From: an uncultured Planctomycetales bacterium
Lineage (GTDB): Bacteria; Planctomycetota; Planctomycetia; Isosphaerales; Isosphaeraceae
Direction of reading: 5' to 3'
Assembly (NCBI GenBank): GCA_903926465.1
Contig: CAIYJE010000077.1
Location: 1-43,617, forward strand
Length of the DNA: 43,617 nt
Under the pieces are notes generated by a model. The model was not told the DNA's origin and did not search any database. It was given only the letters and a program-made list of their open reading frames with translations. This document shows, piece after piece, positions 16,766-21,662 of this stretch. A program made the translations under genes and the position numbers. Each line of letters starts with the position of its first letter. Within the stretch, counting starts at the first letter, position 1.

Positions 16766-16917
16766 ACAACACCTTGCGTTGACAGGCCGTGGGCCTGATG
16801 CTGATCCATGTTCGCCACGTGCACAACCAGGCCGGTGACCGGCTCACGGTGGGCGCACCATTCCCGTTTTTGGTCTTTTGGACCTGTCCCAAGATACGCT
16901 CAGCCGTTGGTGTTGTC

Positions 16918-18330
16918 ATGGCGACCCTTCGCAAGCCGGGCTACCGCCGGCTCAGTCTACTGTTCCACAAGGCGAGCGAGCCGATCTTCCTGATCGATGC
17001 GGCCAGACGCCTGGTCTACGTGAACCCGAGCTGGGAAGCACTCACCGGTTTTGAAGCAGAGTCCGTGCTGGGCCAGGAGTGCCTGCCGCTGGAGCCTGCC
17101 GCCGCCGAGCCGGGCCGAGATCGCCTGGCGGCAAGTTTTTGCCCGCCGGCAGAGGCGTTCGGGACCGAGCCAACCACCACAACCACTCTGGTCATTCACG
17201 CCAGTGGCGAGCCACGCTGGCGGCGGCTGGAGTTTTGGCCCCTACACACAGGCAATGATCGACCGCTCGCCGTCCTTGGGTTCGTCCGACCGGTTGAATC
17301 CACCGGTTCCGTACCCGACGCCCCGTCGCTGAAGCTCAGGAACCAGCTTCAAGCCCTAAGCGCTCAGCTGCGGGCAACCAACCGGCCAGCCGAACTGATC
17401 GGGGCAGGACCGCAGCATCTCCGACTCCTGGAACAAATCCATGCCGCGGCCCAACTCAGCGGACCTGTCTTGATTGTGGGTGAACCGGGGACCGGTAAAC
17501 GCATGGTCGCTCGGATCATTCACGAACAGGGACCAAGCGCAACAAGACCCCTCATCGCGCTCGATGCTCCAGCCATGACTCCAGATCTGCTTGAAACCGC
17601 ACTCCGGGACCTGCTGGTTGCCGATCCAGCAACGGAGGGCCTTCCCAATGCCGCAGTCGATTCAAGGCCGGGAACGGTCCTCATTCGCGAGGTCTGCGAG
17701 CTTCCGCGCGACATCCAGTCTCAGCTTGAAACACGGCCACAAACCCCAACCTCACCGCGGCTGATCACCACCTCCAAACGCGATCCCGACCTGGCACGCA
17801 CTTCCCACAAGCTTCGAGACGACCTTTACTACCAGCTCACCGCGCAGGTGATTCGCCTGGCCCCGCTGCGGCACCGGCTTCAAGACCTGCCACTGCTCGC
17901 CCAGACGTTTCTCCAGCAAGCCCCGCCAGGCGCAGGCCGAAAACCACTCGGGTTCACGGCCGAGGCCATGGAGGTGCTCAACGCCTATGACTGGCCCGGC
18001 AACCTGAGCGAGCTGAGGCGAGTGATTGAGGCTACCATGACCATAGCAGCCGGCGACCTGATCACCGCGGCCGACCTTCCGACCGCGATCAAGGGGCAGC
18101 TTGGCGCGGCCTATAACCCGCCACCGATGCCACCCCCGGTCACGCCACTGGATTCCACCCTGGAAACACTGGAACGCAGGCTGATTGAGCAGGCCCTGAA
18201 CCATGCTCGCCACAACAAGACCAAGGCGGCCGACATGCTCAGCATTTCTCGCCCCAGGCTCTACAGACGCATGAAAGAGCTGAACATTCCGGATCTCCCG
18301 GAACCGGATGAGAAAGCGGCAGGGCTCTAG
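16918..18330 (+). CDS. PAS-AAA-Fis regulator of the sigma-54 activator family, degenerate
   Basis: The 470-residue protein has the layout of a sigma-54-dependent activator. A PAS domain covers about residues 12-125 (EPIFLIDAARRLVYVNPSWEALTGF), an AAA domain 155-395 (Walker A GEPGTGKR at 188-195; arginine-finger region LRDDLYYQL at 299-307; DWPGNLSELRR at 358-368) and a Fis-type helix-turn-helix 415-455 (NKTKAADMLSISRPRLYRRM). Two parts are missing or altered. There is no GAFTGA loop for contacting sigma-54, and Walker B reads VLIREV with no Asp-Glu pair, so ATP hydrolysis is doubtful. It may bind DNA without activating sigma-54. The frame opens at a GTG (16789); the ATG at 16918 matches where PAS homology starts. 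Confidence 0.8.
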   Translation: MATLRKPGYRRLSLLFHKASEPIFLIDAARRLVYVNPSWEALTGFEAESVLGQECLPLEPAAAEPGRDRLAASFCPPAEAFGTEPTTTTTLVIHASGEPRWRRLEFWPLHTGNDRPLAVLGFVRPVESTGSVPDAPSLKLRNQLQALSAQLRATNRPAELIGAGPQHLRLLEQIHAAAQLSGPVLIVGEPGTGKRMVARIIHEQGPSATRPLIALDAPAMTPDLLETALRDLLVADPATEGLPNAAVDSRPGTVLIREVCELPRDIQSQLETRPQTPTSPRLITTSKRDPDLARTSHKLRDDLYYQLTAQVIRLAPLRHRLQDLPLLAQTFLQQAPPGAGRKPLGFTAEAMEVLNAYDWPGNLSELRRVIEATMTIAAGDLITAADLPTAIKGQLGAAYNPPPMPPPVTPLDSTLETLERRLIEQALNHARHNKTKAADMLSISRPRLYRRMKELNIPDLPEPDEKAAGL

Positions 18331-18452
18331 GCAGGGGTGTCCGTTCAATCATGCCGGTCCACCTTGAGCAATTTCCTGTCAAAAATCTGTAACCAAACCG
18401 ACCTCGCCTGCCTCTTGAAGTGTGGGAACCGTGAAAACGCAGGGGGCCGTTC

Positions 18453-20231
18453 ATGAGCCAGGCATCACGAAAGGTGCTCGATCCGTTCCGGCAACTCTGG
18501 GAGCATGGCACCTTGCGGGGGCTGAGCCCAGAGGAATTGCTGAATCGCTTTGTGATGCGCCGAGATGAGCAGGCGTTTGCCTGCTTGGTCTCTCAGTTCG
18601 GACCCATGGTTTATTCGGTCTGCCAGAGTGTGCTGCACGATGAGCATGCGGCCGATGACGCTTTCCAGGCCACTTTTCTGCTCCTGGCCCGCAAGGCTGG
18701 CTCTGTCAGGTCGGGAATTCAGCTTGGTCGCTGGCTGCATCGAACAGCCCGGCGCGTTGCCACCAGAGCCGCACGTCAGGCCGCGCGCCGACCCGAACGT
18801 ACCAGCCTCCACGAACTGGGCGAAGGTGCACAAGCCCCTGCGCCACGTACCGCGCTGGAGCCCGATCTGATGCGATTGCTCCATGAAGAAGTGGACCGAC
18901 TGCCGGCCAGCCATCGCGCGGCGGTGGTGGCGTGTGACCTGGAAGGGCTCAGCCATCAACAGGCCGCCGACCAACTCCGCTGGCCGGTGGGCACGGTGAA
19001 AGGCCGGCTCTTTCGCGCCCACCGCACCTTGCAAACCCGGCTGACTCGCCGGGGGGTAAGCCCCCTGGTCCTGCCGCTGGCCACTGGCGGCTTAATACCG
19101 TACCCACTCGTCAATTCGACCACACACCTGGCGGTTACCGCCGCCTCTGGCTCTCTCAAGAACAGCCTGGTGCCTGCCGCCGTGGCAGCCCTGGTTACAG
19201 GAGAAATACATATGATCTGGCTGAAAACCGCCGTTCTAAGTGGCTGCCTGCTGGCGGCCGGTACGGGTTTGACCGCTGGTGCCATGAAGCTGGCCGGCGA
19301 ACGAGGTGCTGGGGCAGTTGGAGTTCATGATGCCCAGTTCGCCGATCAGAAGCAGACAAGCGAACCGGCTGCACCCAAGCCTGCAAATGCAGAAATCTCT
19401 TCAGCGGTGGCCAACCAATCGTCCAACCTGATACCCCTACTCACTCCTGAATCTCGAAAAGAGCTCCAGGACGCACTCCAGAATTTGCAGAGCGAAAGAG
19501 AGTTTGAAGAAAGCCAATTACCGTTTTTCAGAAAGTTGTTCGGGATAAGTGAAACCCGAGTGATCGAAGCCGAAAAAGCCATCCTGGAACTGGAGGATCA
19601 ACTCTCCAAAAAGCAAACACTCGGGGGAAAGGAGATGGCAGAGGAACTGGATGCCAGAAATTTACGGGCGATGCTCAATATCAGAGCTGAAGCGCAGAAC
19701 AAATATCAAGCAATGAAACAAGACCTGAAAAAGTTCAGCGATCAACTTCGGATGCTCCGTGACAAGGAGAATTCCATCCTCGAACAACTGAGTGCCCCGA
19801 GTGCGGAACCCAGACGAATCAGGCCCGGCGATACGCTGGTGATCGAGGTGTTGGAAGCCCTGCCGGGCAGGCCGATCACTGGCGAGCGACTGGTGCGCAG
19901 TGATGGCACCGTGGGGCTCTTCTTCTATGGCGATGTTCGGATCGCCGGGCTAAACCGGAACCAGGCCAAGGCCGCCATCATCGGCCACCTGCGCAAATAC
20001 CTGAGCGATGGGAAGCTTGGGCTGGTTGTTGTGGATGATCGGGGGAACACGCTCGCGATCGCTCCCGAGCAATCGGCGGCCGTGGTGGTTGATGATACTC
20101 CGGCCGAGATCGAGGATTTACGACGCAAGCGAGAATCCGACGAGAGCCGCCCGAACCCGGTACTCAGAAGCAGGCCCACCGTCCTGGGCAACCCGCAGGT
20201 GCCCAGCCCCGAGAAAACGGATCCAGAGTAA
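18453..20231 (+). CDS. ECF sigma factor fused to a membrane anchor, coiled coil and polysaccharide-export-like domain
   Basis: The 592-residue protein starts with an ECF-type sigma factor: region 2 at about 30-105 (FVMRRDEQAF, DDAFQATFLLLAR, GRWLHRTARR) and region 4 at about 140-200 (LPASHRAAVVACDLEGLSHQ, then WPVGTVKGRLFRA). A hydrophobic segment (about 255-275) follows, then a Gln/Glu-rich coiled coil (333-447). Residues 455-532 (RIRPGDTLVIEVLEALPGR...VGLFFYGDVRIAGLNRNQAK) match the N-terminal domain of Wza-type polysaccharide export proteins. Planctomycetes often have sigma factors with C-terminal extensions. Here the extension suggests a membrane-bound sigma factor tied to envelope or exopolysaccharide status (inference). 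An internal ribosome site near 19199 may give a second product. Confidence 0.88.
   Translation: MSQASRKVLDPFRQLWEHGTLRGLSPEELLNRFVMRRDEQAFACLVSQFGPMVYSVCQSVLHDEHAADDAFQATFLLLARKAGSVRSGIQLGRWLHRTARRVATRAARQAARRPERTSLHELGEGAQAPAPRTALEPDLMRLLHEEVDRLPASHRAAVVACDLEGLSHQQAADQLRWPVGTVKGRLFRAHRTLQTRLTRRGVSPLVLPLATGGLIPYPLVNSTTHLAVTAASGSLKNSLVPAAVAALVTGEIHMIWLKTAVLSGCLLAAGTGLTAGAMKLAGERGAGAVGVHDAQFADQKQTSEPAAPKPANAEISSAVANQSSNLIPLLTPESRKELQDALQNLQSEREFEESQLPFFRKLFGISETRVIEAEKAILELEDQLSKKQTLGGKEMAEELDARNLRAMLNIRAEAQNKYQAMKQDLKKFSDQLRMLRDKENSILEQLSAPSAEPRRIRPGDTLVIEVLEALPGRPITGERLVRSDGTVGLFFYGDVRIAGLNRNQAKAAIIGHLRKYLSDGKLGLVVVDDRGNTLAIAPEQSAAVVVDDTPAEIEDLRRKRESDESRPNPVLRSRPTVLGNPQVPSPEKTDPE
19199..19214 (+). 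promoter_or_regulatory. Internal ribosome binding site inside the sigma factor gene
   Basis: AGGAGA (19199-19204) lies seven bases before the in-frame ATG at 19212. The downstream protein would begin MIWLKTAVLSGCLLAAG, a good membrane anchor, and would lack the sigma domains. This looks like a deliberate second start, though no experiment supports it. Confidence 0.45.
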
Positions 20232-20438
20232 ATCAGGAAATGAACGGGATGGACGGAATGGACACGAAGGAAGAATGGAACCAGGCAGCGCCGGCAAAGT
20301 TTCGATCCTGGTCCGTACCGTTCATTCTTCCCTTGCGTTCGGCTTAGGGCCAACCTTGACCAAACCGCCCGCCTGGGCTATCACCACCCTTGGCCAGAAC
20401 GGGTGCCGTGTGCGTTCGGGGTCCGTCTTGAGGTGCTG

Positions 20439-21662
20439 ATGCCAGGCGCAGCGTCCATCGTGGTTATCATTTTGCTCCTCGGCCAGCGCGCGGTACCGCT
20501 GGGCGAAGATACTACGCCGCCATTCGAGGCCACTCCACGCGTTTCCAGACCGGCCTGGGTAATCACGGAAGGACTGTCGGTTCTGGTTGAGCCCGAAGAA
20601 GGAGCCTTCGTCACCACACGAATGAAAAGTGGCCGAAAGGTGATCGTTCGGGCCTCAAACCCACCTGGTTGGCTGGCAATCGCTCCCCCTGAAGGCTCAT
20701 TCTCCTGGATCGAGAAGCGGGCCGTTGAAGATCTGGGGGAAGGGCAGGGCAAGGTCACCGTCTCGGCCGCCGCAGTTCGCCCAGGCCGCAACGATGTCTC
20801 GCTCCCTACCGGCCCCTACGTCACCCTGCGATCCGGTGCCGATGTGGTCTTGCTCGACCGGCCACCGCTCATCCTCCGCCAAGGAGAAGAACGGCGCATC
20901 TGGTACGCCATCGAACCGCCGGCCAGCGAGGTCCGCTATATTCGCGATGACGGTGTAGCCTGGTCCGATCCAACTCTGCTCGGAACCGAGGGCGAAAAGG
21001 ATGAACCCTCATCCACGTTTGACTTCGTCAACCGCCGTACCGACCCCTCCGAAGACCGAATCGGACGGCTCGACCCAGAATTTGTCGCCGTGGGACCAAC
21101 GGCACGCGAGGTTGGACTCTCACCCAGCTTCGAAGCAGAACTCAAACGGATCGAAAAAGCGCACCGGGCCACCCTCGTCAGACCCATGGAAACCTGGTCA
21201 CTTGCCCCGATCGAGGCGGAATATCTCAGACTCAGAGACCAGTCCAACTCAGGCAACGAAAAACAGGCGGTCGAACTCCGGCTCACTCAGCTCAAGCACC
21301 AGGCCGAAACCTCCCGATCGGCCCGCAGCCTACGCGAACTGATTGAAAATAGCCGCCTCCGCGACAAGGAATTTCAGCGCATCCGGGAACGGCTGGGAAC
21401 CATCGCCAGCGGCGACGAAGCGCCCTACGATGCCGAAGGGTTGCTTCAAACCAGTTCCACCATGCTCGATGGCCACAAGGCGCTCATTCTGATCAATGAT
21501 GCCGGCAAAACCGATGCCTACGTGGTCATGCCCCCCGGCCTGAGAATCGACCAGTACGTGGCAACCCGGGTCGGAATCCGCGGCGATTCCCGGTACGACG
21601 CCCGCCTCAAAGCCCGGGTAATTAACGTGGCCGAGATCGACCGACTCGATACCGCCCCCTGA
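20439..21662 (+). CDS. Secreted SH3-like domain protein, function unknown
   Basis: The 407-residue protein begins with a hydrophobic signal (MPGAASIVVIILLLGQ), so it is probably exported. Residues 30-175 contain two SH3-like beta modules: WVITEGLSVLVEPEEGAFVTTR with GWLAI as the first, and NDVSLPTGPYVTLRSGADVVLL as the second. The rest is charged and helical (about 215-330), ending in a small C-terminal domain. No catalytic motif is visible. The gene starts 207 bases after the sigma factor gene on the same strand, so the two may be regulated together. GAGGTG precedes the ATG. The name is based on fold only; a role in the cell envelope is a guess. Confidence 0.65.
   Translation: MPGAASIVVIILLLGQRAVPLGEDTTPPFEATPRVSRPAWVITEGLSVLVEPEEGAFVTTRMKSGRKVIVRASNPPGWLAIAPPEGSFSWIEKRAVEDLGEGQGKVTVSAAAVRPGRNDVSLPTGPYVTLRSGADVVLLDRPPLILRQGEERRIWYAIEPPASEVRYIRDDGVAWSDPTLLGTEGEKDEPSSTFDFVNRRTDPSEDRIGRLDPEFVAVGPTAREVGLSPSFEAELKRIEKAHRATLVRPMETWSLAPIEAEYLRLRDQSNSGNEKQAVELRLTQLKHQAETSRSARSLRELIENSRLRDKEFQRIRERLGTIASGDEAPYDAEGLLQTSSTMLDGHKALILINDAGKTDAYVVMPPGLRIDQYVATRVGIRGDSRYDARLKARVINVAEIDRLDTAP

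Follow-up and report, generated by a model that had tools for sequence, protein, structure and literature searches.

A planctomycete ECF57-like sigma factor joined to a Wza-type domain, with a putative internal start ahead of its predicted membrane anchor

Introduction

Several ECF sigma factors that carry a membrane-bound part of their own have been described. IutY (ECF243) has a C-terminal membrane-bound part and is freed by intramembrane proteolysis, and the groups ECF48, ECF52 and ECF53 have such a part by prediction, with a periplasmic carbohydrate-binding domain in SCO4117 of ECF52 (excerpts of PMC8999054). The same excerpts describe ECF57 as planctomycete sigma factors with C-terminal extensions, often WD40, marked by a conserved cysteine in each of sigma-2 and sigma-4, a pair that would join the two domains; the named example is from Singulisphaera acidiphila (PMC8999054). 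An earlier note on the locus described here had stated that planctomycetal sigma factors with extensions are known, and the ECF57 group bears this out.

In polysaccharide export, domain D1 of Wza docks the outer-membrane exporter onto the inner-membrane copolymerase Wzc. In E. coli, D1 touches the helical arm of Wzc, and deletion of D1 disrupts the co-localisation of Wza and Wzc (excerpts of PMC12881504). Among OPX proteins, class 3 is described as consisting of Poly_export and SLBB domains only (excerpts of PMC9603273).

In planctomycete genomes, sigma factors whose outer domains await an explanation number in the dozens. The gene considered here lies in a stretch of 43,617 nucleotides (the window: contig CAIYJE010000077.1, positions 1 to 43,617) from the 6.9 Mb genome of an uncultured member of the Isosphaeraceae, and its product joins an ECF sigma factor to a domain of the Wza type. 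A sigma factor with a Wza-type outer domain appears to be new, planctomycete ECF sigma factors with C-terminal extensions being already known. The earlier note knew of no description of this exact combination; a search of the literature likewise found no paper, which is a weak negative in that the main ECF classification papers were outside its coverage.

Domain architecture and predicted structure

The gene is a continuous frame of 592 amino acids (18453..20231, +) with no stop within it, its bounds agreeing with those of the earlier note, and a stop stands in frame at 18432, 7 codons 5' of the first ATG. The order along the polypeptide is ECF sigma factor, linker, anchor, helical stretch and Poly_export domain. 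Sigma-70 region 2 occupies residues 45-113 (18585..18791, +; PF04542 Sigma70_r2, E 1.3e-10) and region 4 residues 141-191 (18873..19025, +; PF08281 Sigma70_r4_2, E 1.1e-10), both with the ECF fold. The Pfam scan of the protein gave no match to region 3, and by regions 2 and 4 without region 3 the protein is an ECF (group 4) sigma factor. In an NCBIfam scan the best 25 of 71 matches were all sigma, and in fold the N-terminal part is matched to ECF sigma factors, AlgU, SigE, SigW and SigK among them. The Pfam match to Poly_export (PF02563) covers residues 450-519 (E 1.7e-9, 38.2 bits against a cut-off of 28). The claim that a sigma factor, an anchor and a Poly_export domain are joined in one frame held; r2, r4_2 and PF02563 all score over their cut-offs. 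The same protein gave no Pfam match to SLBB after the Poly_export domain and none to an anti-sigma domain, in each case up to E 1, and no Pfam match to WD40.

Between region 4 and the anchor lies a linker (residues 201-253; 19053..19211, +), delimited by comparison with other linkers and by an AlphaFold2 model. A long helix containing the anchor, or signal-like stretch, is placed by the model and by hydropathy at residues 242-282 (19176..19298, +), followed by a stretch predicted to be unstructured (residues 284-327; 19302..19433, +; pLDDT < 50), by a three-helix, coiled-coil-like stretch (residues 332-446; 19446..19790, +) and by the Poly_export or Wza D1 (PES) domain (residues 450-550; 19800..20102, +), assigned by PF02563, by a profile match to Wza chains and by fold. 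All three helices of the 332-446 stretch have hydrophobic periods of 3.4-3.6, so that "coiled coil", as the segment had been called, is fair as a description. The anchor is only moderately hydrophobic and falls below most relatives, which is a weak point of its reading as a tether: the best 19-residue means are 1.67 (residues 239-257) and 1.53 (residues 260-278), and 96 of 101 long-extension frames, that of the window included, have a stretch of 1.6 or more, with many at 1.8-2.3.

In the AlphaFold2 model of the whole protein, made from a 32-row alignment of fusions (mean pLDDT 77, pTM 0.43), sigma helices extend up to residue 199 and are followed by a single helix (242-282), by helices at 332-363, 367-389 and 393-446, and then by a compact Poly_export fold (461-550). 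The C-terminal part modelled separately from 57 rows reached a pLDDT of 84.5. Structure prediction had been set beforehand as the test on which the idea of a Wza-like fold could fail, and it gave a Wza match. With the C-terminal model, the ten best Foldseek rows were all Wza-family chains, six of them with E <= 0.001, and VIA-align gave Z 10.8 against 9n9a and Z 9.9 (rmsd 1.9, 75 aligned) against residues 84-169 of 2j58_A, the D1/PES domain of Wza, compared with Z 3.6 for the top unrelated row. Wza chains also rank first in a profile search of solved structures (7xfd_A, E 5.7e-8). By these models the C-terminal domain is predicted to have the fold of Wza D1/PES.

Two cysteines of the sigma part, Cys57 in the sigma-2 part (18621..18623, +) and Cys161 in the sigma-4 part (18933..18935, +), are invariant in 32/32 fusions and in 67/67 relatives aligned. 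Because such a pair is the mark reported for ECF57 in the excerpts cited above, the window protein is called ECF57-like, an assignment by cysteine pair and extension at the level of sequence. The genome of S. acidiphila, itself a member of the Isosphaeraceae, also carries a sigma-Poly_export fusion (L154).

Distribution and kinship of the fusions

A single-protein scan of genome contigs returned no relative. Of 45 Isosphaeraceae genomes, 44 contain matches to the Poly_export module of the window protein, and 33 of the 93 distinct frames that carry it also have a sigma domain (18 rows weaker than 1e-11, from frames of 187-435 aa, are not included in this family count). The 33 sigma-Poly_export fusions are spread over 31 of the 45 genomes and 16 of 21 genera. 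A search for proteins combining region 2, region 4 and Poly_export had been suggested with the first description of the locus, and all 32 of the fusions scanned with Pfam have the three domains, 20-21 of them with SLBB as well; the 33rd, L123, was left out of the scan for its length. Chance or artefactual fusion is ruled out by the identical domain order in 32 other genes. The module itself is present in 269 of 397 genomes of the class. Outside the Isosphaeraceae, 57 distant loci were opened, a minority of the matches, and no fusion was found in these 37 loci (L265-L301) and 20 regions (L302-L321), three of which were met twice.

The Poly_export tree places the window protein in a supported set (95) of seven rows, made up of the window protein, four further fusions, one of them present in two copies, and a frame truncated at a contig end. 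Three of the four share its long linker, and all five fusions of the set have only 41-74 residues after Poly_export. The window's Poly_export domain is 55% identical to that of an exporter of its own genome, 56% to that of the G001 fusion and 58% to that of an exporter of another genus. On the sigma tree the fusion state needs at least 12 changes, and the AU test does not reject a single clade of fusions (p 0.056); for the 34 fused Poly_export domains taken together it does reject a single clade (p 7e-5; 96 columns, quick search). One genome has two fusion genes in tandem (G020, L213: 6858-8699 and 9211-11247), of which one has a short linker and the other a long one.

Related planctomycete ECF sigma factors share the linker, usually an anchor helix 50-90 residues past region 4, and a variable outer part. 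Pfam gives 72 families in the other extensions of 67 relatives (a 68th, L033, from another family, was left out), among them carboxypeptidase-regulatory-like (8), HlyD (4), SBP_bac_10 (3) and WD40 (3 of the 67; in the excerpted description of ECF57, WD40 is a matter of prevalence and not a requirement). In a second family (f3), ten genomes have 24-126 matches each to a sigma-plus-linker query, with 126, 93 and 82 in G091, G070 and G047, single genomes of 9-10 Mb.

Genomic neighbourhood

Directly upstream of the sigma gene and on the same strand is an activator composed of PAS, AAA+ (sigma-54 interaction domain) and Fis-type HTH parts (16789-18330, +), and 3' of it is a 419-aa frame (20403-21662, +), hydrophobic near its start, that has no Pfam or NCBIfam match. 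Among the window proteins scanned, no polysaccharide cluster was recognised beside the gene. No anti-sigma domain occurs in the 14 neighbouring window proteins scanned (4 and 10, a few small frames between them being left out), in agreement with the suggestion that the protein works without an anti-sigma factor.

Twenty other fusion neighbourhoods were compared, with genes predicted by a simple script, which in L203 failed to pick up the fusion itself. Ten neighbour proteins from them were scanned with Pfam, with no polysaccharide genes among these ten: two histidine kinases, two FAA hydrolases, an alpha/beta hydrolase, a xylose-isomerase-like protein, a phosphotransferase, an enolase, one SBP_bac_10 protein and one protein without a match. 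A stand-alone exporter gene shares a stretch with a fusion only in genus g17 (G016, G059, G060, G061). Elsewhere in the window's genome are three stand-alone Poly_export frames besides the fusion, two frames with a Wzz domain (978 and 743 aa), and M50 protease frames. Four stand-alone Poly_export genes are clustered on one strand in another genome (G031, L092, C8:2208-11327).

A putative internal start before the anchor

Within the window gene, AGGAG (19199..19203, +) precedes the ATG of codon 254 by 8 nt and is a putative internal ribosome-binding site, conserved among relatives. No other in-frame ATG of the gene has RGGAG 5-12 nt ahead of it: the first ATG lacks such a match, and before codon 140 stands TGGAG, at 9 nt. 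Translation from codon 254 would give a second product of 339 aa (19212..20231, +) that begins MIWLKTAVLSGCLLAAG... and is signal-sequence-like. The full-length protein shows no signal or lipid anchor at its N-terminus, and from codon 254 there is a signal-like stretch with LSGC. In relatives the internal Met is often followed by a few residues including Lys and then by a hydrophobic run, the make-up of a signal peptide. The locus had been described as encoding one polypeptide, which is right as regards the continuous 592-aa frame and overlooks this in-frame internal start, with its suggestion of a second product lacking the sigma part.

The test for internal starts was devised after the site of the window had been seen, and the window is therefore not an independent case; its relatives are. 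Of 101 long-extension ECF sigma factors, 58 have an ATG in frame within the linker and RGGAG 5-12 nt before it. Applied to stretches of equal length, the same test was positive in 1 of 101 from the sigma domain and in 11 of 317 from the extension. The strict pattern is absent in the other 43, including 15 of the 33 Poly_export fusions. In a non-redundant set (<60% identity) the counts are 15/32 against 0/32. Family f3 has the pattern in 9/31, compared with 0/31 sigma-domain and 2/80 extension stretches, and other families in 2/5, compared with 1/5 and 1/18. As to the starts of genes in these genomes generally, 29 of 185 early ATGs are preceded by RGGAG, mostly 5-13 nt away, as are 43 of 1186 internal ATGs. 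The commonest spacing between site and ATG among the relatives is 11 nt, which is long by E. coli habit.

Codon usage at the site bears on what is being conserved. For the Gly within the site, 48 of 56 sequences use GGA and the other 8 GGG, never GGC or GGT, against a GGA background of 17% (p 3e-29), GGC being the commonest Gly codon of these genes. In the non-redundant set GGA is used in 17/19 (p 1.7e-11). The Gln, Glu or Lys codon preceding that Gly ends in A in 29 of 36 cases against a background of 31% (p 1.6e-9). From this joint bias, selection seems to act on the nucleotides of the internal site and not on the protein alone. The open reading of the 101 frames was also considered as a sign of selection and was dropped, the frames having been chosen for read-through from sigma factor to extension; three matches in one search list have one stop inside the match, and the f3 sigma-plus-linker search has none inside the match among the matches listed. 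The window's genome holds a second long-extension ECF sigma factor of 682 aa without Poly_export (L035:1459-3507, C48), the linker of which has AAGGAG, 11 nt and ATG; so has that of the S. acidiphila fusion L154.

Shine-Dalgarno-like pausing has been proposed for membrane-protein genes, and it could be that only the full-length protein is made, that the conserved AAGGAG slows the ribosome for insertion of the anchor or folding of the sigma part, and that the Met is merely part of the helix. The position of the site within the coding frame and a spacing to the ATG of mostly 11 nt suit this explanation, which we nonetheless consider unlikely. Pausing has no need of an ATG, yet 29 of 32 non-redundant relatives have a Met directly before the anchor, compared with 156 of 535 similarly long blocks elsewhere; a pause 5' of the anchor would precede synthesis of the anchor; and the sequence past the Met often resembles a signal peptide. 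Given the conserved site, the ATG and the signal-peptide-like start taken together, the gene probably yields both a membrane-tethered sigma factor and the outer part alone, as judged from comparison of sequences. The internal start, if real, would be more surprising than the Wza-type domain, since it bears on the class as a whole.

Fused and stand-alone Poly_export domains

Eighteen sister fusions, which form one sigma clade (97), were compared with the exporters of the same genomes. A single clade of their Poly_export domains apart from those exporters is rejected (AU p 8.8e-5), whereas a single clade of their SLBB parts apart from the exporters is permitted (AU p 0.357). A first tree with Poly_export and SLBB joined gave no rejection (AU p 0.413), and splitting them shows that only Poly_export departs. 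L157 was left out before these counts, and for the split trees the distant stand-alone paralogues L073, L111 and L133 were left out also. That Poly_export departs while SLBB does not is as expected if Poly_export is held to the partner of the exporters, and the trees are thus a hint of a partner shared with them; the pattern is seen in the sister fusions, the window protein itself being without it. With L157 again left out, the nearest stand-alone domain comes from the same genome in 12 of 33 cases, where permutation gave 1.0 on average and at most 6 in 5000; kinship between members of a genus inflates the observed figure.

Individual pairs differ in how alike the fused and stand-alone domains are. 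In G016, the fusion L059 and the distant stand-alone exporter L102 are 88% identical in Poly_export (76% of codons) and 52% identical in SLBB (41% of codons), a pattern that looks like an old conversion event. In G036 the codon identities are 74% for Poly_export and 70% for SLBB. With identity raised in some pairs (G016) and hardly in others (G036), gene conversion is not claimed as the general cause.

These comparisons also bear on whether the outer domain does anything. The sigma factor might simply be anchored, with Poly_export a non-sensing spacer or leftover and with activity set by the amount made or by phosphorylation. Such a role would sit well with the loss from the window protein of SLBB, kept in 20-21 of 32 fusions, with the high variety of extensions in this class, and with the lack of recognised polysaccharide genes nearby. 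We think it improbable: the Poly_export core is strongly conserved, its G, P, Y and K positions being invariant across 57 rows, the predicted fold is intact, and the Poly_export domain of the sister fusions stays near that of the exporters while SLBB drifts.

Proposed mechanism

The explanation that we prefer combines a tethered ECF57-like sigma factor, two products, a partner in the export complex and release of the sigma factor; taken whole, and drawn from sequences and models, it seems to us evenly balanced between right and wrong. One hydrophobic helix would link the cytoplasmic sigma part to a domain lying beyond the inner membrane. The frame would give two proteins, the tethered sigma factor at full length and a product comprising the outer part only, started at codon 254 and either secreted or anchored. 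The Poly_export domain would bind the exporters' own partner, whether the copolymerase ring or exporter subunits, and assembly or saturation of the export complex would alter its state. This change would then free or activate the sigma factor; the simplest route would be cleavage within or close to the membrane, as happens with IutY, and the alternative a conformational change relayed via the linker. The product lacking the sigma part might adjust the response, either as a competitor for that complex or by helping to build it. We infer that the Poly_export domain senses export status in this way. We lean slightly towards the proposal that the window gene is the version in which the outer domain mimics the copolymerase-docking domain of an exporter.

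The converse arrangement, in which the internally started product is the main one and serves as an accessory export subunit while a minor full-length form feeds synthesis back onto transcription, is very doubtful: the internal site of the window (AGGAG, 8 nt) fits RGGAG where the first ATG does not, and the sigma-less product would start signal-like, but SLBB, usual in exporters, is absent from the window protein, and the full-length form is under selection too, because sigma regions 2 and 4 are conserved in 32/32 fusions scanned.

If one frame does give both a tethered sigma factor and its free outer half, the class as a whole would have a rule open to test. The Poly_export version offers a concrete case, because its counterpart domain belongs to a capsule exporter that has been studied in detail and docks there onto a known partner.

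Comparison with known systems

With Wza and the OPX exporters, the window protein has in common the Poly_export/PES domain, by Pfam, profile and predicted fold; it differs from them in having no SLBB and no Wza_C and in having a sigma factor in front. Since SLBB is missing, the protein is not an OPX exporter on the class definitions excerpted from PMC9603273. IutY and SCO4117, so far as the excerpts of PMC8999054 describe them, have the order predicted for the window protein, namely sigma factor, transmembrane part and outer domain. Their extensions are or resemble anti-sigma factors, whereas the window protein has no such Pfam domain and its outer domain is a different one. ECF57, in the same source, shares with the window protein its planctomycete origin, its long C-terminal extension and its cysteine pair; where the ECF57 extension is often WD40, that of the window protein consists of an anchor, helices and a Wza-type domain.
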